Source: a virus. Taken from it: DNA of 33,751 nucleotides. The translations under genes were made by a program, and so were the position numbers. This document shows, one piece after another, positions 436 to 33,432 of the stretch (position 1 is its first letter; each line of letters begins with the position of its first letter). The stretch lies in the IMG/VR virus record IMGVR_UViG_3300032322_001355, positions 1 through 33,751 of that record; one strand, 5' to 3'. The notes below the pieces were generated by a model that saw only the letters and a program-made list of their open reading frames with translations, made no database searches and was not told the DNA's origin.

Positions 436-444
436 TTGGTAGTT
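436..444 (-). promoter_or_regulatory. AACTACCAA leader motif
   Basis: Exact 9-mer on the minus strand, ending 2 bases before the ATG of the SPOR-like gene (reads AACTACCAACAATG). It is one of eight such leaders on early genes and is complementary to the hairpin loop at 18769-18777. Confidence 0.7.
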
Positions 445-457
445 TTAAAATTGTTAA

Positions 458-919
458 TTATTTAAGTGATTCGATTTTTCTAATTGCCCAGTTGATACCT
501 TCATCACCGCCCCAGGCATCCCACATCAAGCCTCCGCATCCTTGGTCATAGCTAACATCTTTATTCTCTTGATGTCTTATGAATGCTGCCATACGTTTTA
601 CGGTTGTGAGGCTGATAGGTTCTTTCTTGGCTAACTGATTTGCTCTCATCCATCCGACAAGAGTTCCGCAGTCATTTTTGTTGCCGTTCTCTTCCTTCCA
701 TTTAAGCGCACGTTTTGCATTCTCGGTGGCTGCCTTAGGATAGTCGGTGAATGTTTCTTCGTTCTTCGGATTGGTTGCCTTGTCTTTGTTGTTAAACTTC
801 ATTGAGCAGATGGCATATCGTTGGTCTTGTGGATATTCAGAGATCATATTCTCATCTGACATACAGCGTTCAATGAACTTGTCAAACTGCTCTCCTGGAT
901 TAGGATTTGGAATGGGCAT
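458..919 (-). CDS. Protein with prohead-protease-associated domains
   Basis: 153 aa. Residues 1-45 (MPIPNPNPGEQFDKF.ERCM) resemble the short N-terminal module seen on many phage head proteins and proteases. Residues 55-153 (DYPKAATENAKRAL, CGTLVG, RANQLA, MWDAWGGDEG) resemble a helical domain found next to HK97-type prohead proteases. The protease itself is not present here; a ClpP-type protease is encoded on the opposite strand at 1515. It lies in the leftward early operon, overlapping the upstream gene by 20 nt. Its leader has only a degenerate motif (CTACTAA). It may be a capsid accessory or a domesticated domain; function unknown. Confidence 0.6.
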   Translation of the reverse strand: MPIPNPNPGEQFDKFIERCMSDENMISEYPQDQRYAICSMKFNNKDKATNPKNEETFTDYPKAATENAKRALKWKEENGNKNDCGTLVGWMRANQLAKKEPISLTTVKRMAAFIRHQENKDVSYDQGCGGLMWDAWGGDEGINWAIRKIESLK

Positions 920-1193
920 AAATTAGTAGATTTGGAACGTATTTGATAATTGATGAACTTATCTCATCATAGGTTACTTGTAATATCTCGTGTCTGCATA
1001 CAAAATTATAATTCATTCCGATAACACCAAAATAAATATCAAACTTTTCGGGGTTTATTTTGCATCTGTGAACATAAACTTTGTTTGAATCTGCACCTGC
1101 TAAGAAGGTATGGCCAATGATTAAAAGGTCATCACTTACTTGTACTGTCTCAACGAAAAAATGTTTTCTGTAAATTGCTGCTAAATCTCTCAT
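900..1193 (-). CDS. Hypothetical early protein
   Basis: 97 aa, not recognised. Mixed alpha/beta composition with one short cysteine-containing segment (YNFVCRHEI), and no signal peptide or membrane segment. The start is supported by an AACTACCAA motif ending two bases before the ATG. It is the second gene of the leftward early operon driven from about 1413 and overlaps the next gene by 20 nt, suggesting coupled translation. Confidence 0.65.
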   Translation of the reverse strand: MRDLAAIYRKHFFVETVQVSDDLLIIGHTFLAGADSNKVYVHRCKINPEKFDIYFGVIGMNYNFVCRHEILQVTYDEISSSIIKYVPNLLIYAHSKS

Positions 1194-1195
1194 TT

Positions 1196-1204
1196 TTGGT
1201 AGTT
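1196..1204 (-). promoter_or_regulatory. AACTACCAA leader motif
   Basis: Minus-strand 9-mer immediately upstream of the 97-aa gene (AACTACCAAAAATG). It is complementary to the hairpin loop at 18769-18777. Confidence 0.7.
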
Positions 1205-1227: not shown

Positions 1228-1362
1228 TTAAGCTGGTCTTTTCATATAGTTTTGAATTTCTTTAAGAAGTTCTAATTCTTCTTTTGATAAAACTGTTTTT
1301 AATAGTAATGTTTTTTGAATTTTTACTATTTCGCTATCTGTATAAAGTAATTCGATTGGCAT
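1228..1362 (-). CDS. Small hypothetical early protein (44 aa)
   Basis: 44-aa ORF beginning MPIELLYTDSEIVK and ending NYMKRPA. It is largely helical, with a Lys/Glu/Leu-rich middle. It is the first gene behind the operator-bearing promoter at 1413-1443, and its leader carries AACTACCAA 12 bases before the ATG. Position, leader motif and tight packing against the next gene support it as real despite its length. No function can be assigned. Confidence 0.6.
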   Translation of the reverse strand: MPIELLYTDSEIVKIQKTLLLKTVLSKEELELLKEIQNYMKRPA

Positions 1363-1374
1363 AATCTTAATTTT

Positions 1375-1383
1375 TTGGTAGTT
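1375..1383 (-). promoter_or_regulatory. AACTACCAA leader motif
   Basis: Minus-strand 9-mer in the 5' leader of the first gene of the leftward operon, 12 bases upstream of its ATG and about 25 bases downstream of the promoter box. Confidence 0.65.
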
Positions 1384-1443: not shown

Positions 1444-1514
1444 TATAAAAGACATTTTTTTGCACTAAAATGATATTTTTTTTATGTTATAATTGTGCAA
1501 ATTCATTTTTTAAT

Positions 1515-4468: not shown

Positions 4469-5008
4469 ATGGCAATTACTACTGGCTTAACTACCAATTG
4501 CGCAAAATCTTGTGCAGGTGGTGTAAAAAGACTTTGGATAGCAAATTTCGAAGATATCTCAACTATCACATTTGATGGTACAGAGCAAATCACAGCTATA
4601 ACTATGGCTGGTGCTGCTGTATTCTACGAAATAGAACTAAAGCGTAACAGCAAATCATTCACGGAGCAGTTTAATGTTTCTGATGATGGTTGTAACAACT
4701 CACTTACTCAAACATTTACTGGTAACGGACAATGCCGTGACCAAGATACTCGTAACTTCCTTGTTTCTGCTGCAAAACAATCTTGCTGTGGTATCATCGT
4801 TGCTCACGAAGAAAACAATGGACAAGTAGTTGTTTGGGGATTCTTTTCTGACCTTAATGCTCGTCTTGGTGCAGGTACTCAAATCACAACTGGTACTAAC
4901 CTTACCGATCCATCACAAATTACACTTGAGCTTATCTGCGACACAGTTGTTGATGGTGCTGCTACTGTCTTCACTCCTGGTGTTGCTGGTATCATCGCTC
5001 TTACATAG
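4469..5008 (+). CDS. Major tail protein
   Basis: 179 aa. The start (MAITTGLTTNCAKSCAGGVK) and the LWIANFEDI segment are of a type I associate with major tail tube proteins of Bacteroidota siphophages. The body is strand-rich with several cysteines (CAKSC, DDGC, QSCC) and ends in a beta region. It follows the capsid gene and is bracketed by hairpins at 4420 and 5063, as expected for a highly expressed single gene. The leader is A-rich. An AACTACCAA 9-mer falls inside codons 7-10 (4489-4497), the one exact copy outside the early leaders. Confidence 0.65.
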   Translation: MAITTGLTTNCAKSCAGGVKRLWIANFEDISTITFDGTEQITAITMAGAAVFYEIELKRNSKSFTEQFNVSDDGCNNSLTQTFTGNGQCRDQDTRNFLVSAAKQSCCGIIVAHEENNGQVVVWGFFSDLNARLGAGTQITTGTNLTDPSQITLELICDTVVDGAATVFTPGVAGIIALT

Positions 5009-9476: not shown

Positions 9477-9785
9477 ATGAACATACTATTATTCCAGGAA
9501 GCTATCCCCGGCTTTATTAACTCACTCGCAAATTATGGGGTATTAGGCATCTTTGCTATACTGATGATTGCAATCATTTATTTTATGGGTAAGCAATTCT
9601 TTATTTGGCATAAGAAGAATGAATCAAGGATTCAGGAACTTGAAAAAAGATTGGAAACTTATCTTGTTGAAGATAGAACTACACTTATGGAAACTCTTGC
9701 TTCTAACAATCACGTAATCGAAAACAACACTTCGATGATGAAAAAGCTTCTAAATCTTGTCGAGAAACTTGAAAAATCACACTAA
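9477..9785 (+). CDS. Putative holin (BhlA/UviB-like)
   Basis: 102 aa with one N-terminal membrane helix (YGVLGIFAILMIAIIYFMG, residues about 20-38). This is followed by a charged cytoplasmic coiled coil (WHKKNESRIQELEKRLETYL). The same plan is seen in BhlA/UviB-type putative holins. The next gene also encodes a membrane protein, and a holin/antiholin pair at the end of the rightward head operon is plausible. No experimental support. Confidence 0.5.
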   Translation: MNILLFQEAIPGFINSLANYGVLGIFAILMIAIIYFMGKQFFIWHKKNESRIQELEKRLETYLVEDRTTLMETLASNNHVIENNTSMMKKLLNLVEKLEKSH

Positions 9786-10567: not shown

Positions 10568-10693
10568 TTAATGATTTTTAGGTTCGTAATATTTATATTT
10601 ATTTTTTCGCTTTGGTTTATAACCAATATTGTTTGTCAACAGCAACAGGCCGAAACCTGTGCTGAGACAAAAGATTGCTATTGCTAACACCAT
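10568..10693 (-). CDS. Small single-pass membrane protein (41 aa)
   Basis: 41 aa. An N-terminal membrane helix (VLAIAIFCLSTGFGLLLL) is followed by a very basic tail (KPKRKNKYKYYEPKNH). The ATG overlaps the end of the upstream gene by 10 nt and the stop lies 1 nt before the SSB start, so it fills the gap in the operon exactly. Too short for family assignment. An inner-membrane-inserted peptide acting on the host early in infection is one possibility (inference). Confidence 0.55.
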   Translation of the reverse strand: MVLAIAIFCLSTGFGLLLLTNNIGYKPKRKNKYKYYEPKNH

Positions 10694-11001
10694 ATTGAAT
10701 CCTCCGAATCATTTTCATAGGCTTCTTGAAGATGTTCACAAAAATATCGGTCAAGTTCTTTCCAAGACTTCTCAAATATAATAGCTGCTTGGTCAATGGT
10801 GACACTTTTATCATAGTCTTCGATATAAATGTCGGTTAGTTCAAAATATCCTCCCAAATCGGGTTCTAACTGACAGCCATAAGAATCTCTGCTGCCCATT
10901 TCAGGTTCTACATAGTAACCTGAGATTTTAACATAAACTTCGTTTGTTGGAAAATTGTCGCACTCCATAAAGAGGCCTGTGGTGAAAATTGCGTTTGTCA
11001 T
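10684..11001 (-). CDS. Hypothetical early protein
   Basis: 105 aa, acidic, with many Asp/Glu and Tyr residues (EVYVKISGYYVEPEMG, GYFELTDIYIEDYDKSVT, DRYFCEHLQEAYENDSEDSIWC). Not recognised. Acidic small early proteins sometimes mimic DNA, but nothing here proves that. It is the first gene behind the operator-associated box at 11032-11039 and carries an AACTACCAA leader motif 3 bases before the ATG. Confidence 0.65.
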   Translation of the reverse strand: MTNAIFTTGLFMECDNFPTNEVYVKISGYYVEPEMGSRDSYGCQLEPDLGGYFELTDIYIEDYDKSVTIDQAAIIFEKSWKELDRYFCEHLQEAYENDSEDSIWC

Positions 11002-11004
11002 AAC

Positions 11005-11013
11005 TTGGTAGTT
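11005..11013 (-). promoter_or_regulatory. AACTACCAA leader motif
   Basis: Minus-strand 9-mer 3 bases upstream of the ATG (AACTACCAAGTTATG). The 14-base context is identical to that of the gene at 15131. It is complementary to the hairpin loop at 18769-18777. Confidence 0.7.
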
Positions 11014-11031
11014 TTAATTATTAACGATGCA

Positions 11032-11054
11032 CAAAGATAATAATATTTTATTAC
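11032..11054 (-). promoter_or_regulatory. Operator copy 2 with leftward promoter box
   Basis: TATCTTTG on the minus strand (11032-11039) fits TAnnTTTG and directly abuts the palindromic operator TAATAATATTTTATTA (11038-11053). A clear TTTG at -33 is not visible, so the promoter may be weak or activator-dependent. It lies between the P-loop ATPase gene and the 105-aa gene, giving SSB and its neighbours their own promoter. Confidence 0.65.
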
Positions 11055-11064
11055 ATTGTACGTT

Positions 11065-12786
11065 TTACAGAATATTTTTTAAATTTATTTGCACACATCT
11101 GCCAATTAAACCCGAACTGAATCGAGTAGTGTTGCGCTTTCCTGCACCAGGATGCCTTGTCAATACCGTGCTGTAACTTACTGCCCACGGTGTGCGACTC
11201 AAAACTTGCTTAACAAAAACTGAGGTGTTCAGAATCAGCAAATATTTTTCTTTCTGCTCTTCAATAACTCGCAATCCAAGCCTCTGAAGCCTCTCATCCG
11301 CTGCCGATTGCTTAATTTTTGCCTGTGGTTCATACTCAGAAGCATATTCGACCAACTCACCAACTGTAACAGTACCAATAAAATCTCCTTCAATCCTTGT
11401 TTCGTGCTGTAGTATGGTTTGCAGACATCTTTGTTCATCTGTCAAGTCCTCTTTGTCTTCCAATATTCCTTTCGCATCCAATATTGCAGCAGCTTCATTC
11501 AATGCCGTTTGAGGTTCAACAACATCATCGTTCCAGGTATGCCACCATCCGCCCAACAGCGCACCGAATTGGTCAGCAATAGCACGATCACCCACCAGTT
11601 CCGATATGGCTTCCGTAAAAATATAAATGCTTCTGAGCATATTCGGTAAGAGATTCACCATTCTCGCTGTAAATCTCAATCCAAAATCACCTGTAATGGT
11701 TTCTTTCTTAATCTTGTTTAGCTCCTTGAACTTGTCCTGGTTGCTGTGCTTCGCAAGTTCAAAGATTGTAAACCTTCTCTTGTCTGAATCATTGACCAAT
11801 TGCGGATTGATTGACACCATCAAAAAGCAGCTACGAACAAAATAGTCCGTTGCCTTGCCGTCTTTCCCACCTTTTGGAATGGCAGGTGACTTCTCCGAAC
11901 TTCCTGCTCGTGCCAAGGCAATAACTTCCTGCATTCTCCTTGCTGCATTCTCATCATTACCCTCCGATTCATCTATCGTCACTGGCATAGCATCAGAATT
12001 GAGCTTCTGCCTTATCGCTGCCTCTGTCGCTGCTGTTCCCTGAGCATTTATTGAGAACTCTCCTAATACCGGGTGAACAATCTGTTCAAGCACATAAGTT
12101 TTTCCGTTCCCTCTTGGGCCTGTAATCCAACAATGAGGCCGCCAAGATAGTGCGCCACAAACAGGAGCTATCGCTAACCATCCTGCTAATAACTTACCAT
12201 CAGCTTCAGTATTCCAATTCAATCTCGATAACAATCTTGTCAGTTTAGCACATTCCAACTTATCCATCATATTTTCTATCGGAATGCGGATGTTCTTTCG
12301 CATCTCATAGGTAAACTCCGTATCAATGCTGCCAAGGTTGTATCTAATCTTCTCGCTGAGTAACTGCATCCCGGTATGGAAGATAATTCTATCAGATTCC
12401 TTCCAGGCACCACGACCTCTGATGCTCTGCAAATCAAAATAACCTACTGCATTACACATCGTAATCAGGTAGTCTGCAATATACTCGCTCTTATCAAAAG
12501 ATTCGTTCTGCCAAAATTCAATCGGTGCGAGCTGAACAACGTGCTGTTTTGTAAACTTCGATGTGCTAAATGCCAAAATAGCATTGCTCAACTTTGAGTA
12601 AAAGTAAAAACGCTGAAATCTGCTTTCAGAATCCCATCCTAATGGCTTAAAATAACCACCTACAAAACCACGCTGGTCTGTTGGAGGTGTGTTGCCCGGT
12701 GCAGGTTGTGCTTTTGGTTTTCGGGTTCTTTTCTTTGGTGGTTCTTCCTGATCGGATTCCCAATTGATTGATGGTAGTTTTTTCAT
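11065..12786 (-). CDS. P-loop replication ATPase/helicase (VirE/DUF927/SF3-like)
   Basis: 573 aa. The Walker A motif GPRGNGKT is at about 223-230, the acidic Walker B segment MPVTIDE at about 267-273, and a sensor-like SCFLMVSINP near 320. The N-terminal 200 residues begin with a basic, proline-rich linker and contain a helical region with no visible primase catalytic motif. The layout resembles phage and mobile-element replication ATPases of the D5/DUF927/VirE type. With SSB, an SF2 helicase and the iteron region, it is the best candidate for the replicative helicase. The AACTACCA 8-mer occurs at +8 inside its first codons. Its start overlaps the upstream gene by ATGA. Confidence 0.65.
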   Translation of the reverse strand: MKKLPSINWESDQEEPPKKRTRKPKAQPAPGNTPPTDQRGFVGGYFKPLGWDSESRFQRFYFYSKLSNAILAFSTSKFTKQHVVQLAPIEFWQNESFDKSEYIADYLITMCNAVGYFDLQSIRGRGAWKESDRIIFHTGMQLLSEKIRYNLGSIDTEFTYEMRKNIRIPIENMMDKLECAKLTRLLSRLNWNTEADGKLLAGWLAIAPVCGALSWRPHCWITGPRGNGKTYVLEQIVHPVLGEFSINAQGTAATEAAIRQKLNSDAMPVTIDESEGNDENAARRMQEVIALARAGSSEKSPAIPKGGKDGKATDYFVRSCFLMVSINPQLVNDSDKRRFTIFELAKHSNQDKFKELNKIKKETITGDFGLRFTARMVNLLPNMLRSIYIFTEAISELVGDRAIADQFGALLGGWWHTWNDDVVEPQTALNEAAAILDAKGILEDKEDLTDEQRCLQTILQHETRIEGDFIGTVTVGELVEYASEYEPQAKIKQSAADERLQRLGLRVIEEQKEKYLLILNTSVFVKQVLSRTPWAVSYSTVLTRHPGAGKRNTTRFSSGLIGRCVQINLKNIL

Positions 12787-14343: not shown

Positions 14344-14944
14344 TCTTTCTGATAGTTCTTTTTAGTTTTTGTAATGCCCTCATTGTCTTTTTCAACTCTT
14401 CAGGATATCTGTGCATCGTGTTAAGCTTCATATTCTGTCCTTTACTAATGAGCATCAGATTGTTAATGTCATATTTGTTCTGTCTTTGGTCTTTTACTCG
14501 TACTACGCATCCTTTCGGTACTTTTCCGTAGGTTTCTTCCCAAATAAGAATCTCTTTTCGAATCCATTTTTTATCGGCCACCTTAACAAGTAAAAACTTA
14601 TCTTTGCCATCTATCCTGGTAGATCCGACTTCCCTTGTATTGTGAGGTTTTTGTCCTTTCTTGAAGCTTGTCTCATTGGCTCCCATATAACCTTTTGTTC
14701 CTTTGTTCCAAGTTGTATGACCAGGTTGGAATCGTGTTTGATTGCCAAGTTCCCTAAGCTTTTTAGCTTCAATATTAAGAAGCATCTTAATATATTCTTC
14801 TGACCTTTTTAAGCCTAAAAGATATGCTTGTGTGTAAATACTTCTATCTGAGCGACCTAAGATTCTGCAAATCTCCTTTATGTCGGTATCAGAGTAGAGG
14901 GCACTTAGTACCCTCCGCTCATCTTCAGTCCATTTACGCTTCAT
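14330..14944 (-). CDS. HNH-family protein with apparently lost catalytic histidines
   Basis: 204 aa from ATG 14942-14944, which fits the conserved start KWTEDERRVLSALYSD better than the upstream ATG at 14980. Residues 1-60 are a SANT/Myb-like helix-turn-helix (EICRILGRSDRSIYTQAYLLGLKRS). Next come WNKGTKGY and KKGQKPHN segments, typical linkers of this family. The nuclease core reads IWEETYGKVPKGCVVRVKDQ..NKYDINNLMLI. Family members usually have His where this one has the Thr of EETYG and the Cys of GCVV, so it may be a DNA-binding protein without nuclease activity. It overlaps the upstream gene by 11 nt. Confidence 0.7.
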   Translation of the reverse strand: MKRKWTEDERRVLSALYSDTDIKEICRILGRSDRSIYTQAYLLGLKRSEEYIKMLLNIEAKKLRELGNQTRFQPGHTTWNKGTKGYMGANETSFKKGQKPHNTREVGSTRIDGKDKFLLVKVADKKWIRKEILIWEETYGKVPKGCVVRVKDQRQNKYDINNLMLISKGQNMKLNTMHRYPEELKKTMRALQKLKRTIRKNGTK

Positions 14945-15131
14945 CCTTAGCTCTTTTGAGATAGTAAACAGCTTCCGCAATTATAACTGAAAGGCTGCCC
15001 AACTGTGCGTGTGCTTTATACTCATCAGCAATAGATACTTTGTTTGCCGTTTCTTTCGAGCGTTCCATTGCATTTTCAAGTTGTTTCAATGCCTGCTCAA
15101 TGCAGAACTCAACTTCAGTAAGATTTTTCAT
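14934..15131 (-). CDS. Hypothetical early protein
   Basis: 65 aa, helical (EFCIEQALKQLENAMERSKETANKV, then LGSLSVIIAEAVYYLKRAKDEA). Not recognised. It is the first gene of the leftward replication operon behind operator copy 3. The leader AACTACCAAGTTATG is identical to that of the gene at 11001. Confidence 0.6.
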   Translation of the reverse strand: MKNLTEVEFCIEQALKQLENAMERSKETANKVSIADEYKAHAQLGSLSVIIAEAVYYLKRAKDEA

Positions 15132-15134
15132 AAC

Positions 15135-15143
15135 TTGGTAGTT
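15135..15143 (-). promoter_or_regulatory. AACTACCAA leader motif
   Basis: Minus-strand 9-mer 3 bases upstream of the ATG of the first replication-operon gene. It is complementary to the hairpin loop at 18769-18777. Confidence 0.7.
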
Positions 15144-15169: not shown

Positions 15170-15195
15170 TAAAGGTAATAATAAAATTTTATTAC
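15170..15195 (-). promoter_or_regulatory. Operator copy 3 with leftward promoter box
   Basis: The perfect 16-bp palindrome TAATAAAATTTTATTA (15179-15194) sits just upstream, in minus-strand terms, of TACCTTTA (15170-15177), one mismatch from TAnnTTTG. This is the only perfectly symmetric copy, so it may be the strongest repressor site. It controls the operon starting at 15131 and lies immediately after the SF2 helicase stop. Confidence 0.65.
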
Positions 15196-15205
15196 GTTGT
15201 ACTTT

Positions 15206-16795
15206 TTAATAAGATTTTTTATAACTTTTTTTCATATTGACTTTTTTCCAACTATAAAATGTATTCCAGGCAATATTGATTGCTGCCTTAACATCTGTTT
15301 CGGAAAGCGATGCAGCATTGATTTTGTAATTAAAATTTAAAATATAAATATAATTTATTAAATCAGTATTTTTTTGATGCCATACATAGTTTGATAACTC
15401 CTTTAATACCTTAGCTTCAAAAATATGCTTAACCCAAAAATCTTGATATCCTTTCATTTCCTTATACTGCCAATGTTCTTCCAAGGTTTTACAATCTTTT
15501 AGTTCTTTTACCTTAGCTCCTTGATGGATATTCAAGAAATCATCCAGTGACCTTTCATCTTTGACAGCAATGCCCTGGACAGTTTTCAACTCACGTTTTT
15601 TCTTCTCATTTATCAATCCGCACTTCGGACAGCACTCCTCAGACTTCTCATACACAAAGTAACAGCCTTCACAAGTGTAATACTCCTCATTCTCTTCCTC
15701 CTGCTTTTTCTTCTTCCTCTTTTTCTTCATTCCTTCCAATGACCAGTCTCTTTGCGTCAATGGGTGCTGATGTCTGCCAATGTTACCAACGTGATCTAAT
15801 ATGATGCACTTATCTTTGCCCTCACAAGGTCTCAATCCACGGCCGACTATTTGTAAGTACAATGCCATCGACATCGTTGGTCGGCATAAACCTACAACAG
15901 CCACAGCAGGAATATCTGTACCCTCGCTTATCAAATCACAGAATGTTACTACATTGATACTTCTATCCGCAAGACCTTTGAATATTCGCTCAACTTCTTC
16001 ATCTTTCAGCTCACCGTGAACAGCCTCAGAGGTGTATCCTGCCGACCTGAACTTCTCCGCCAACTTTTTGGACTCTGCAATACTGACGCAACTGTATATT
16101 GCAGGTTCTCCAGGTGCGAGTTTTGTGTATTCCTTTACAGCATCACCAACTAAACCCGATTGCTCAATCAACTTGTTTACTTCGCTTTTATTGTATTCTC
16201 CGTGCTTGTCGAGCTTCACATTCTCCAATCCTTTAAGATTCTTGAACGTATAATAATCAGGCATCACCAAATTACCCATCTTGACCAGTTCCGCAGGCGT
16301 TGGACCCAATATCATATCCTGGAAGATATCTCCAAGACCTTGGCCATCGGTTCTTATTGGTGTAGCTGTAACTCCAAGTGTATAGACTTCGGAATAATAA
16401 TCCAATATTGCTTTCCACGTTCCTGCATTACTATGGTGCGCCTCATCGACAATAATCAGATCAGGTACCGGAACATCAGACAATCTGTTCTTCAAGGTCT
16501 GCACACTACAAATCTGTGCAGGTAAGTAGTATTGTTTCTGATATCCTCCTGCAATAATTCCGTGCCTAAGATTGTACTTTTTGCATCGCTCAGAGATTTG
16601 CCTAACAAGGTTCTTTTTATGCACCAGGAAGAACACAGTCTTACCCATTGACATCGCTCTTTCTGCTATGTATATAAAGGTCTCAGTCTTGCCTCCACCT
16701 GTTGCAAGTACATACAGCACTCTTTTATTCTTTTTGAGGCTGTTACGGATGCCATTCACACCATCTTGCTGATATGGCCTAAGATTTACGCTCAT
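15206..16795 (-). CDS. SF2 DEAD/DEAH-box helicase with zinc-ribbon insert
   Basis: 529 aa from ATG 16793-16795; an upstream start at 16843 would lie inside the HTH gene. Motif I is ATGGGKT (31-37), motif II DEAH (117-120), motif III-like GVTATP (141-146), and motif VI QIVGRGLRP near 320. A four-cysteine ribbon CEGC...CPKCG lies around residues 385-410 after a very basic stretch. This is the UvrB/RecQ/Type-III-restriction-like helicase group common in phage replication modules. It would unwind DNA, possibly at recombination or replication forks. It overlaps the HTH repressor gene by 17 nt, so the two are co-transcribed from the divergent promoter at 17031-17038. Confidence 0.88.
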   Translation of the reverse strand: MSVNLRPYQQDGVNGIRNSLKKNKRVLYVLATGGGKTETFIYIAERAMSMGKTVFFLVHKKNLVRQISERCKKYNLRHGIIAGGYQKQYYLPAQICSVQTLKNRLSDVPVPDLIIVDEAHHSNAGTWKAILDYYSEVYTLGVTATPIRTDGQGLGDIFQDMILGPTPAELVKMGNLVMPDYYTFKNLKGLENVKLDKHGEYNKSEVNKLIEQSGLVGDAVKEYTKLAPGEPAIYSCVSIAESKKLAEKFRSAGYTSEAVHGELKDEEVERIFKGLADRSINVVTFCDLISEGTDIPAVAVVGLCRPTMSMALYLQIVGRGLRPCEGKDKCIILDHVGNIGRHQHPLTQRDWSLEGMKKKRKKKKQEEENEEYYTCEGCYFVYEKSEECCPKCGLINEKKKRELKTVQGIAVKDERSLDDFLNIHQGAKVKELKDCKTLEEHWQYKEMKGYQDFWVKHIFEAKVLKELSNYVWHQKNTDLINYIYILNFNYKINAASLSETDVKAAINIAWNTFYSWKKVNMKKSYKKSY

Positions 16796-16991: not shown

Positions 16992-17030
16992 TTTTTTTTA
17001 AGATTTTTGAAAAAATATTGTTTAATAGTG

Positions 17031-17058
17031 CAAATGTAATAATATTTTATTATCTTTG
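17031..17058. promoter_or_regulatory. Divergent promoters sharing operator copy 4
   Basis: TAATAATATTTTATTA (17037-17052) is flanked by CAAATGTA (17031-17038, TACATTTG on the minus strand) and TATCTTTG (17051-17058, plus strand). Both fit TAnnTTTG, giving back-to-back -7 boxes for the HTH gene and for the exonuclease. One bound dimer would cover both. Clear TTTG -33 boxes are not seen. Confidence 0.75.
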
Positions 17059-17086
17059 TGTAACAATTCGTTAAAATTTTAAAAAT

Positions 17087-17095
17087 AACTACCAA
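17087..17095 (+). promoter_or_regulatory. AACTACCAA leader motif
   Basis: Plus-strand 9-mer whose last A is the first base of the exonuclease ATG (AACTACCAATG). It pairs over 10 nt with the hairpin loop at 18768-18777. Confidence 0.7.
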
Positions 17096-17856
17096 TGACA
17101 AATCAAGAGTATCACTCAAAAACAGATTTTTTAAGCAAAAGCTTACTTGATCAGATTCGCAAATCTCCTGCTCACTTTCAGGCCTATATTAACGGTCAGA
17201 AAAAAGAAGCTACTTCAGCAATGAACTTCGGAAGCCTTGTGCATTCTGTACTATTCGACCAGGATAACTTCGCAATTATGCCGACCTGTGACCGCAGAAC
17301 CAAGGAAGGTAAACTTCTTTATGAGGCATTCTTACAAGATGCTCAAGGTAAGGAACTATTGGTTACTGAAGAACAGCACGAACAAGCACTTCTTATCGCT
17401 CAGTCTATTGCCAAGCATCCAAAAGCAGCAGCACTCCTTTCTTCAGAAGGTATTGCAGAAGCCCCGGTATTCGGACAGCTCGAAGGTGTTAACTTCAAAT
17501 GTAAACCCGATTTTTTCAATACCAAGTTTAACGTAGTGGTTGACCTTAAAACAACTACAGACAGCTCACCTTCTGAATTTTCAAAGTCTGTGTGGAATTA
17601 TCGTTACCACGTGCAGGCGGCAATTTATATGGACTTGACCAATGCAAAAAGGTTCTTCTTCATTGCAGTAGAAAAAGAAGCTCCGTTCAATGTTGAGGTG
17701 TACGAACTTGATGATGAATCCATCAGCATCGGAAGAGCAGCATATCTCGCAGATATCGAAACCTACAAAAAATGTGTCGAAACAAACAACTGGCACGGTT
17801 ACACAGAAGAACCTGCAATTCACGTTATCTCACTTCCATCTTGGGCAAAAAAATAA
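17095..17856 (+). CDS. RecE-like PD-(D/E)XK exonuclease
   Basis: 253 aa. N-terminal SKTDFLSKSLLDQIRKSPAHFQAY and MNFGSLVHSVLFDQ are the usual opening of RecE/DUF3799-type nucleases. The catalytic core is CKPDFFN (Asp) followed by VVVDLKTT (D-x-K), then YHVQAAIYMDL with the QxxxY helix. It would resect double-stranded ends 5' to 3' and hand ssDNA to the annealing protein encoded next. The 26-nt gap to the next gene contains another leader motif. Early expression is implied by operator copy 4 just upstream. Confidence 0.85.
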   Translation: MTNQEYHSKTDFLSKSLLDQIRKSPAHFQAYINGQKKEATSAMNFGSLVHSVLFDQDNFAIMPTCDRRTKEGKLLYEAFLQDAQGKELLVTEEQHEQALLIAQSIAKHPKAAALLSSEGIAEAPVFGQLEGVNFKCKPDFFNTKFNVVVDLKTTTDSSPSEFSKSVWNYRYHVQAAIYMDLTNAKRFFFIAVEKEAPFNVEVYELDDESISIGRAAYLADIETYKKCVETNNWHGYTEEPAIHVISLPSWAKK

Positions 17857-17871
17857 TTCTTAATCTTAAAT

Positions 17872-17880
17872 AACTACCAA
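17872..17880 (+). promoter_or_regulatory. AACTACCAA leader motif
   Basis: Plus-strand 9-mer 2 bases before the ATG of the annealing protein gene (AACTACCAACAATG). It is complementary over 9 nt to the hairpin loop at 18769-18777. Confidence 0.7.
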
Positions 17881-17882
17881 CA

Positions 17883-18410
17883 ATGTCAAACATCACAAAA
17901 CTTCCAACATTCCAAGATCTGATTACAGATACACAGGAATCTCTTAAACAAAATGCACTTACTGTACTCCTAAATCAAGACCCTCCGAAGAGTTGGCTTG
18001 TAACACATCCGATGATTAAGGGGTATAATTACCTATCAATTGAGAAAATTGAGTACCTTTTAACACGAATTTTTACAAAATGGTGGGTAGAAGTAAAATC
18101 AGTACAAATCGTCGCAAACAGCGTCTGTGTCACGGTTAGACTCTTTGTAACAAACCCAATTACAGGAGAAACAGAATGGCAAGATGGAATTGGTGCTGCT
18201 CCAATACAAACAGACAAGGGTTCGGGCGCAACTGATTGGAACTCAGTTAAAACCGATGGTGTTCAGAAGGCTGCACCTGCTGCTGAAAGTTACGCAATAA
18301 AAGACGCAGCAGAGAAATTTGGTAAGATTTTTGGGCGTGATGTGAGCCGAAAAACAACGATGGATTACAACTCGTTACTGAAAAAAAGCGATTTTAACGA
18401 GCAGATTTAG
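17883..18410 (+). CDS. Rad52/Sak-like single-strand annealing protein
   Basis: 175 aa. The pattern YNYLSIEKIEYLLTRIF, a strand pair (VKSVQIVANSVCVTVRLFV), WQDGIGAAPIQ, and a C-terminal helix (AAPAAESYAIKDAAEKFGKIFGRDV) fits Rad52-superfamily annealing proteins of phages, which commonly follow RecE-type exonucleases. It would anneal complementary ssDNA during phage recombination and concatemer formation. ERF or RecT families are alternatives. An intrinsic terminator follows at 18430. Confidence 0.75.
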   Translation: MSNITKLPTFQDLITDTQESLKQNALTVLLNQDPPKSWLVTHPMIKGYNYLSIEKIEYLLTRIFTKWWVEVKSVQIVANSVCVTVRLFVTNPITGETEWQDGIGAAPIQTDKGSGATDWNSVKTDGVQKAAPAAESYAIKDAAEKFGKIFGRDVSRKTTMDYNSLLKKSDFNEQI

Positions 18411-18429: not shown

Positions 18430-18461
18430 AGAGTGCCTTATGTCGGGGCACTCTTTTTTTT
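18430..18461 (+). terminator. Rho-independent terminator after recombination genes
   Basis: AGAGTGCC (18430-18437) pairs with GGCACTCT (18447-18454), followed by a T run to 18461. This is a strong canonical terminator that isolates the recombination operon from the non-coding region to its right. Confidence 0.9.
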
Positions 18462-18466
18462 GCCCT

Positions 18467-18685
18467 TGTAACAACTTTAAAAAGCCGTTACAGGTTTTGA
18501 TACACTTAACTCATTGATATTCAATCTTTGTAACAATGTAACGATTGTAACGGGAAAATATATTCATATATAAGAACACTATTATACTATTATATATACA
18601 TACATAATACCTGTTACATCTGTTACATTGTTACAATATAGTATTAGTCGATATTTCAATGTAACAAAAATGTAACACTTGTAAC
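18467..18685. other. Candidate replication origin: eleven TGTAAC iterons around an AT-rich core
   Basis: TGTAAC occurs forward at 18467, 18529, 18537, 18546, 18660, 18671 and 18680. It occurs reversed (GTTACA) at 18487, 18613, 18622 and 18630. The triplets at 18529-18551 and 18613-18635 are mirror images (spacings 8, 9 and 9, 8) flanking about 60 bp of nearly pure A/T, like a DNA unwinding element between initiator sites. There is no ORF here. No initiator gene is recognisable, so the binding protein is unknown. Multi-site transcriptional control is the alternative. Confidence 0.6.
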
Positions 18686-18710
18686 ACTTCATTTTTTAGA
18701 AAAAAAAACA

Positions 18711-18718
18711 TATTTTTG
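18711..18718 (+). promoter_or_regulatory. Candidate rightward promoter box
   Basis: TATTTTTG fits TAnnTTTG but no clear TTTG lies 19-21 bp upstream. It lies between the iterons and the hairpin. The longer context ACATATTTTTGCAGT matches ACATTTTTTTGCACT upstream of the head operon (1452-1466) at 13 of 15 positions, so both could be late promoters. Initiation near 18725 would produce the hairpin RNA at 18758. Confidence 0.4.
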
Positions 18719-18724
18719 CAGTGC

Positions 18725-18792
18725 TTTTGTAAGCAGGGTTTTTTAGTTTGTCTCTCAGGGGAAGGTTATTGGTAGTTTCCTTCCCCGATTTT
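18725..18792 (+). ncRNA. Hairpin RNA candidate with loop antisense to early leaders
   Basis: GGGGAAGG (18758-18765) pairs with CCTTCCCC (18779-18786) as a perfect 8-bp stem with a 13-nt loop TTATTGGTAGTTT. TTGGTAGTT in the loop is the exact complement of AACTACCAA found before eight early genes. A short T tract (GATTTTA) follows, so the hairpin may also terminate transcription and leave a short RNA. Outer boundaries are approximate and inferred from the promoter box and T tract. Alternatives are a plain leader terminator or a packaging signal next to the terminase genes. Confidence 0.5.
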
Positions 18793-18901
18793 AAAAAAGC
18801 CGATTTAAGACACTTTTATTTCTTTTTGATAGTAGAGTACCACTTTGGAAAGAAAATTGAACGTAGGTACTAAAGAATGATAAATAAACATATTTTAACT
18901 T

Positions 18902-31893: not shown

Positions 31894-32152
31894 AAGCGAG
31901 TTTGCCCGAAGATTGGCAGAGCGCATTGAGCAGATGGATATTATCACTCCTGAAACGCTATCTGATATGCTCATTGAATCGGGTATTGTTACTGAGCGCA
32001 GAGTATTGCAGTATTGTGCCATCTGCGAGTTTTACGATAGCATAGGCAACAAAACAAAAACGCAGACAATAAAAGAACTGTCTGCGAAATACAATATCTC
32101 TGAGCGCATCCTGGTAGAACTTACAGGGCGAGAGCGGAGGTTTTTAGTTTAA
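31880..32152 (+). CDS. Hypothetical small protein, HTH-like
   Basis: 90 aa from ATG 31880 (MDNIKSEFARRL); starts at 31862 or 31853 are alternatives. Helices RLAERIEQMDIITPETLSDMLIESGIVTERRVLQYCAICEFYDS and KELSAKYNISERILVELTGRERRFL resemble a small DNA-binding or regulatory protein. Its 3' end overlaps the sigma-factor gene on the other strand by 32 nt. It is the last gene of the rightward tail/lysis operon, and no terminator is visible between the two convergent genes. Confidence 0.5.
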   Translation: MDNIKSEFARRLAERIEQMDIITPETLSDMLIESGIVTERRVLQYCAICEFYDSIGNKTKTQTIKELSAKYNISERILVELTGRERRFLV

Positions 32153-32888
32153 GTTTTTGAAGGGCCCTATGGTGAAGATATCGAATTCCTTGCACAGACA
32201 TCTTCATTTCAATTGCCAATTCTTGCCAACTTTTTGGGAATGGCAAAAGGTAACATTGATAAATGATATGCTGTTCCTTGTATGACAATTGCCCCATCAA
32301 TTCTTTGATACGGTCTGACATATCTTTTTTCTCATAGTGTTCCAAAAAGTTTTCATCAGAAACATACTGCTTGATGTATTCATCACTATCTGAATCGTAC
32401 TGGTTATCCATTGATTCTGTAAATGGTGTGTGAATGTAGTTTCTGAAAACGCTATCGGTAATTTTCAGCTTTTCTTTGATTTCTTCTTCGGTATGCGTGT
32501 CAATCAGTTGAAGAATTTTTTTATTTGATATTATCTGTGGTTCTGAAATTCTAATCAGATTGCGTTGGTTTTTAAGGTAAGCCATTATGCTCTGCTGAAT
32601 ATACCAAACAGCATAAGATATAAACTTGAAGCCTTTGGAAGCATCAAATTTTTGTGATGCCTTTACTAATCCGATCATTCCTTCCTGGATTAAATCTTTT
32701 AAGTCATTGGCTTGGCTGCCATACTGTTTTGCGACAGAAACAACAAAAAGCATATTGTGTTTTACAAGTTGTTCGGGTGTTGCTGTAACTTCCTGTTCAG
32801 GAGTGAGTGGTTTGTACTTTGTAGCTTCAGTTAGAAAGCTTTGTATGTTGTGCTGCGTGAATGATTTTTCAATCTGTATTTGTCTCAT
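32121..32888 (-). CDS. Phage-encoded sigma-70 family factor
   Basis: 255 aa. Region 2 is clear (LFVVSVAKQYGSQANDLKDLIQEGMIGLVKASQKFDASKGFKFISYAVWYIQQSIMAYL), including the -10 recognition helix. Region 4 near the C-terminus (LSYKEQHIIYQCYLLPFPKSWQELAIEMKMSVQGIRYLHHRALQKL) is the -35-type HTH with unusual recognition residues. It would bind host core RNA polymerase and redirect it. Early expression suggests it switches on late genes. It overlaps the upstream glucosaminidase gene by ATGA and the rightward gene by 32 nt. Confidence 0.85.
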   Translation of the reverse strand: MRQIQIEKSFTQHNIQSFLTEATKYKPLTPEQEVTATPEQLVKHNMLFVVSVAKQYGSQANDLKDLIQEGMIGLVKASQKFDASKGFKFISYAVWYIQQSIMAYLKNQRNLIRISEPQIISNKKILQLIDTHTEEEIKEKLKITDSVFRNYIHTPFTESMDNQYDSDSDEYIKQYVSDENFLEHYEKKDMSDRIKELMGQLSYKEQHIIYQCYLLPFPKSWQELAIEMKMSVQGIRYLHHRALQKLKLKTSALAL

Positions 32889-33424
32889 TTATCGTACTTG
32901 TCAAGGTCATAAGTTTGTATAATATTAATTAGTGCTGTCGCATAGTGTGGAGCTGTGGCATATCCTGCTTTCTTCAATCCGTGGGCCCATCTTTTATAAT
33001 CGGTGCGTTTCAGTTTTGTCAGGTGTCGATACCGGGCAGAAACTAAAAGCTTCGAATGGTCACGGTAAGACCACCACGCGGAACGGTAAACAACAAATCT
33101 ATCTTTCGGAGTATCATCTTTGTAAACAGCATATTTTTCCTTTCTGCTGCGATGCCATTTCATTCCGAAGTGGTTATTGTGTTTTCTGCTTAGGTCGGAT
33201 CTACCTGAATTGCTTTCGATAATACCCTGTGCCAAAGTTATTGACACAGGAATATTGTAAAGTTCTGCTTCACGTTGAGCAGTTTTCAAAAAGCGTTTAA
33301 TGTATTTTTCTACGTAAGCAGGTTTTTGTTTGACTGGTTTTCCCGATGGTGGGTTACCCGGTGTTGCAAGTTTAAATGACAGCAGTAATGCTGCGAGTGC
33401 TGTACCGATTAAGATTGCTTTCAT
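32885..33424 (-). CDS. Glucosaminidase (FlgJ/LytG-like peptidoglycan hydrolase)
   Basis: 179 aa with an N-terminal signal or membrane anchor (ILIGTALAALLLSFKLA). The glucosaminidase signature includes IPVSITLAQGIIESNSG with candidate catalytic Glu70, HNNHFGMKW, the YRSAWWSYRDHSKLLVSARY segment, and AGYATAPHYATALINIIQ. It would cleave glycan strands in the periplasm. It is early in this phage, in the same operon as a SPOR-like protein and the sigma factor. The leader carries AACTACCAA overlapping the ATG. Confidence 0.8.
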   Translation of the reverse strand: MKAILIGTALAALLLSFKLATPGNPPSGKPVKQKPAYVEKYIKRFLKTAQREAELYNIPVSITLAQGIIESNSGRSDLSRKHNNHFGMKWHRSRKEKYAVYKDDTPKDRFVVYRSAWWSYRDHSKLLVSARYRHLTKLKRTDYKRWAHGLKKAGYATAPHYATALINIIQTYDLDKYDK

Positions 33425-33432
33425 TGGTAGTT
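33424..33432 (-). promoter_or_regulatory. AACTACCAA leader motif
   Basis: Minus-strand 9-mer whose last A is the first base of the glucosaminidase ATG (AACTACCAATG). It overlaps the stop of the upstream small gene. It pairs over 10 nt with the hairpin loop at 18768-18777. Confidence 0.7.

Follow-up and report, generated by a model that had tools for sequence, protein, structure and literature searches.

A hairpin encoded upstream of the terminase large-subunit gene in an uncultured phage genome displays a loop that is complementary to a short word at the translation starts of about nine of the phage's own genes. This loop probably belongs to a late-class, trans-acting antisense RNA that pairs with the initiation regions of these messages and represses them, a reading for which no transcript or activity data exist. 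The window, i.e., the whole stretch of DNA analysed here (33,751 nt), comprises a complete circular-type phage record (IMG/VR IMGVR_UViG_3300032322_001355) with a 123-nt end repeat. No relative of the window was identified at the DNA level in the annotated phage collection; the nearest terminases include those of Flavobacterium phages, and the phage hosts are probable members of the Bacteroidota. IMG/VR searches with the terminase, the primase-like protein and the exonuclease recovered approximately 20 contigs of the same group, and related contigs whose sequence upstream of the terminase is present are referred to as clade A.

The word AACTACCAA occurs ten times on both strands of the window compared to a mean of 0.35 and a maximum of two in 100 dinucleotide shuffles, and a blind k-mer count at gene starts returned it as the most enriched word. 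Eight copies are located at start codons (0-13 nt 5′ of the start, sometimes ending on the A of the ATG), which corresponds to a binomial P of about 3e-8 for enrichment at gene starts, while one copy is the hairpin in its minus-strand reading and one falls within a coding region. The first-pass annotation, which placed the complement of the loop at or near the starts of eight genes, is thereby borne out, with eight of the ten copies at these sites and only 0.35 expected in total. Orthologous leaders retain the motif despite unrelated sequence further upstream, as observed for gene 10684 in L021 and the window, and the motifs are largely single-stranded in the fold computation (mean unpaired probability 0.6-0.99). 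As the sites are found at start codons, including those of genes internal to operons, and not at promoters, a function as DNA operator was ruled out. The phylum does not use Shine-Dalgarno pairing, structure near the start hinders initiation, and the known initiation signals are scattered adenines (PMC6847099); a 9-nt word at start codons therefore requires another explanation.

Family searches confirmed three of the product names initially assigned to the target genes, namely exonuclease (DUF3799/PDDEXK match), annealing protein (Rad52-type) and glucosaminidase, whereas the putative 'SPOR-like' gene 119-433 yielded no family match in these searches and the 'replication ATPase' (573 aa) matches a DNA-primase family. 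The label 'eight early genes' is in part an assumption; the glucosaminidase operon ends with a sigma factor gene. The 8-mer reported for the primase-like gene is real and occupies positions +7 to +15 of the coding sequence, where its Leu codon CTA and its Pro codon CCA are kept in 12 of the 12 orthologues compared. CTA accounts for 7.7% of Leu codons, and a single codon is kept at only 2 of 39 invariant Leu residues. Judging from these codon comparisons, the site is under nucleotide-level selection at the translation start, which would add a ninth target. The additional copy of the 9-mer at +21 of gene 4469-5008 (annotated as the major tail gene) exists as described, but is not kept in the relative G001 and probably arose by chance.

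Table 1. Positions of the hairpin, the predicted RNA, putative target motifs and associated elements in the window.
Feature	Position	Strand	Basis
Late-class promoter-like element ACATATTTTTGCA, including Bacteroidota -7-like TATTTTTG	18708..18720	+	conserved in relatives
Second copy of late promoter-like element, 5′ of head maturation protease gene 1470-2657	1452..1464	+	
Predicted RNA, ~70 nt	18721..18792	+	fold and alignment of relatives; ends inferred, not mapped
Loop-bearing hairpin GGGGAAGG-TTATTGGTAGTTT-CCTTCCCC	18758..18786	+	exact in sequence; stem covariation, + strand G.U pairs
Sigma-70-like factor gene, regions 2 and 4	32121..32888	-	
Target motif AACTACCAA, 5′ of gene 119-433	436..444	-	conserved in orthologues
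Target motif, 5′ of gene 900-1193(-)	1196..1204	-	sequence and orthologue comparison
Target motif, 5′ of gene 1228-1362(-)	1375..1383	-	sequence
Target motif, 5′ of gene 10684-11001(-)	11005..11013	-	kept in 10 relatives
Target motif AACTACCA, inside 5′ end of primase-like gene 11065-12786	12772..12779	-	Leu CTA / Pro CCA invariant, 12 orthologues
Target motif, 5′ of gene 14934-15131(-)	15135..15143	-	sequence and orthologue comparison
Target motif, 5′ of exonuclease gene 17095-17856	17087..17095	+	sequence, orthologues, family match
Target motif, 5′ of annealing-protein gene 17883-18410	17872..17880	+	sequence, orthologues, family match
Target motif, 5′ of glucosaminidase gene 32885-33424	33424..33432	-	sequence, orthologues, family match

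The hairpin itself is present in the window exactly as first annotated. Its 13-nt loop is antisense to the leader motif and largely open in an unpaired-probability computation, the fold on the plus strand reaches z = -2.2 to -2.4, and the complementarity of the loop to several mRNAs encoded elsewhere exceeds chance. From 5′ to 3′, the predicted RNA would consist of a small 5′ hairpin, a variable linker, the loop-bearing hairpin and a short T tail. This tail is weak in the window (GATTTTAAA), thus a discrete small RNA is not assured; L029, L035, L036 and L037 have strong T runs after the hairpin. No Rfam family matched the window at the gathering score.

In every clade A member that reaches that far, the hairpin is located approximately 415-440 nt 5′ of the terminase large-subunit start. 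In the alignment, the loop TTGGTAGTT is constant in nine of ten distinct clade A sequences, and the linker preceding it varies. Stem changes preserve the fold: two pairs are altered on both sides in L029 (GGGACAGG/CCTGTCCC), L021 has one further pair, balanced between the two arms and misplaced in the alignment, and three genomes carry a G.U pair that would read A.C on the minus strand. The same kind of plus-strand G.U change distinguishes L038 from L036 in a distant clade. As G.U on the plus strand corresponds to A.C on the minus strand in both clades, the functional strand is most likely the plus strand and the functional molecule most likely RNA, as far as can be judged from sequence alone. 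RegA, a protein of phage T4, acts at the start sites of many early phage messages and turns them down, and by analogy the leader motif could be where an RNA-binding translational repressor of the phage binds, with the minus-strand hairpin serving as a decoy or autoregulatory site, since the minus-strand loop (AAACTACCAATAA) has the same sense as the leaders. We consider this decidedly improbable, because the G.U pairs fit the plus-strand sense only in two clades, no minus-strand gene or promoter was seen at the hairpin, the promoter-like element and T tail are on the plus strand, and motif and loop change jointly to an unrelated sequence in L037 (see below).

The antisense RNA reading is further supported by a late-class promoter-like element approximately 40 nt upstream of the hairpin, which is otherwise found only at the other late operon: ACATNTTTTTGCA has only two matches in the window, compared to 0.03 expected. 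The same pair of elements is present at both late operons in other clade A genomes, and the promoters preceding the target operons look different (TAATATTTTATTATCTTTG type). The sigma-70-like factor gene is the last gene of a minus-strand operon, several leaders of which are targets, and its product is inferred to be a candidate activator of the late promoter elements. Alternatively, the late terminase mRNA could itself carry the loop in its 5′ leader, which would act in trans on, or sense, early mRNAs in an attenuator-like dual role. This remains possible, if on balance unlikely: the promoter-like element directly 5′ and the terminase directly 3′ of the hairpin, the weak T tail in the window and a second inverted repeat, which relatives conserve between the hairpin and the terminase, are in agreement with it, and the strong T runs in the four genomes named above are not.

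This second inverted repeat (18836-18875) reads AGTACC/GGTACT in the window and L026 and TACCACTT/AAGTGGTA in L027/L028, with two alternative 3′ arms and one constant 5′ arm. Several other elements were identified in this part of the genome and at the early operons. A strong intrinsic terminator (18430-18454; 10-bp stem, T8) ends the annealing-protein operon and separates it from the predicted hairpin transcript. Direct and inverted TGTAACA/TGTTACA repeats, also present in relatives, are clustered at 18528-18690 before the late promoter and possibly mark a replication origin, operator or packaging site. A long AT-rich repeat (ATAATATTTTATTA followed by TATCTTTG/TACCTTTG) is common to the early promoters (11030-11083, 15178-15234 and 17007-17060); a simple host -7 element would be shorter.

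In L037 (terminase identity to the window 66%), the loop and the leaders have changed in concert. Here, a hairpin at the same place has the loop TAGTGTGGTGCTG, which reads GTGTGGTG, and a T7 tail, and two leaders carry CACCACAC immediately 5′ of the ATG, matching the loop over 10 nt in the helicase leader (AGCACCACAC-ATG) and over 8 nt in that of the first minus-strand gene (ACACCACAC-ATG). CACCACAC was listed as a repeated L037 leader word in a count made without using the loop, and the loop-leader duplexes (-19.7 and -15.8 kcal/mol) are stronger than the 1% null of -14.6. Furthermore, this hairpin ranks first in a blind scan of T-tailed hairpins across 131 phage/prophage loci (P = 3e-4 before correction), the T-tail filter of which is failed by most clade A hairpins. 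The L037 test relies on two leaders of a small contig, and these targets are not orthologues of the clade A targets. Another conceivable explanation is pairing of ACUACCA with UGGUAGU, a conserved stretch of 16S rRNA. As the L037 motif differs, such a common host target was rejected as unlikely.

In L029/L030, the loop is one G shorter (TTGTAGTTTAT) and the corresponding C is gone from the exonuclease leader (ACTACAATG); AAACTACTATG, found in other leaders, also matches AGTAGTTT in the linker. Pairing in L029 covers only 7-8 nt and the loop duplexes fall short of the 1% null, hence this case is not significant alone. Besides the loop, the L029 linker (9555-9620) holds this second stretch antisense to AAACTACT leaders. 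L032 (terminase 73% identical) has no such hairpin before the terminase, and a comparison of leader words detected neither an excess nor the leader motif. Retention of the leader motif alongside a changed loop, which the first-pass annotation had named as grounds for refutation, was not seen: L029 and, to a greater degree, L037 show changes in both, and L032 lacks both. L035 was outside the loop-leader test, as its early genes are missing, and independent lineages in the collection are few.

L036, L038 and L040 keep a strong hairpin with a common loop (TTGTAAGGGAAG), and a comparison of loop, linker and leaders revealed no leader matching the loop and only weak low-complexity matches to the linker. 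Their leaders keep neither known motif, so this is not a loop change without leader change; the case shows that the putative pairing is not universal. Compensatory change that maintains the predicted pairing is thus seen in L037 and more weakly in L029, but not in these three genomes. They are in agreement with the suggestion that the hairpin serves merely as a terminator or packaging-site element, with the leader motif an unrelated translation signal and their complementarity coincidental. We regard this as very unlikely indeed, given that loop and leaders repeatedly change, or are absent, together and that the scattered adenines of the phylum (PMC6847099) do not amount to a 9-nt word.

An inspection of the region upstream of the terminase in more distant relatives (L132-L150) did not reveal the hairpin, and L205-L208 contain a different terminator at this location without matching leaders. 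Matches to a DNA pattern in L050 and L052 proved unrelated. Prophage hairpins in L105, L119 and L129 that appeared to match leaders were a false lead, as the matches were the hairpins' own sequence. Bacteroidota prophages (L105 8209, L107 8208, L112 8207, L119 8438 and L129 8204) contain a conserved inverted repeat (AAAGCGTGT...ACACGCTTT) approximately 1.6-1.8 kb before the terminase, at a gene start, the loops of which differ between prophages.

In the favored antisense mechanism, transcription from a late-class promoter at about 18708 would stop, completely or in part, at the hairpin (RNA of ~70 nt) or run on into the terminase mRNA, of which the RNA would then form the leader. The 13-nt loop of this RNA would display UUGGUAGUU, which could pair over 8-11 nt with AACUACCAA in the initiation regions of about nine mRNAs, encoding the exonuclease, annealing protein, primase-like protein, glucosaminidase and small unknown proteins. 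In hosts that initiate translation without Shine-Dalgarno pairing, the duplex would keep the 30S subunit from loading, and the target genes would be turned down as the late operons come on, a timing that is inferred. The short plus-strand RNA from the late side of the genome proposed in the first-pass annotation is supported by the co-change, the strand-specific wobbles and the late-class element, with no transcript demonstrated so far. The repressive sign is likewise inferred: since structure near the start hinders initiation, pairing there should repress. The sign does not follow from the position of the pairing alone, and the RNA might instead protect or activate the messages. This appears improbable: the pairing sites either include part of the start codon or are found at -1 to -22 and +7 to +15, structure around the start region lowers initiation in Flavobacterium (PMC6847099), and there is little leader structure to open. 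In a more extensive version, which falls somewhat short of being probable, one loop would act as a master post-transcriptional switch of an early regulon of at least nine genes, with the late promoter read by the phage sigma factor, negative feedback through the sigma operon among the targets, and co-evolution of loop and leaders between lineages.

Multi-target bacterial small RNAs pair with many leaders via a short accessible seed. The proposed RNA shares with them the use of one short accessible stretch for many leaders, but would be phage encoded, target the phage's own genes and carry its seed in the loop of a terminator-like hairpin. Like T4 RegA, it would be a single trans-acting factor for many early mRNAs, with an RNA loop in place of a protein. 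Known loop-based or small phage antisense RNAs include c4 of P1/P7, sar of P22 and OOP of lambda, each with one target (PMC12197685). The loops of c4 are also complementary to the translation start of a phage mRNA (PMC12197685), but c4 acts on one message (ant) in lysogeny control, whereas here one loop would address approximately nine leaders in several operons. Sar (68/69 nt) and OOP (77 nt) are of similar length and lower phage gene expression (PMC12197685), but each has one target and lacks a repeated leader motif forming a regulon. Consistent with the initial statement that no described phage system with this layout is known, our literature search, which was incomplete in coverage, returned no phage RNA with a many-leader regulon, and the known phage antisense RNAs mostly act on one message. 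If confirmed, a regulon of one loop and many leaders would do with RNA what RegA does in T4 with a protein and would offer phages of hosts without Shine-Dalgarno pairing a simple gene-timing device, and its signature, the co-evolution of loop and leaders, could be searched for in uncultured phages.
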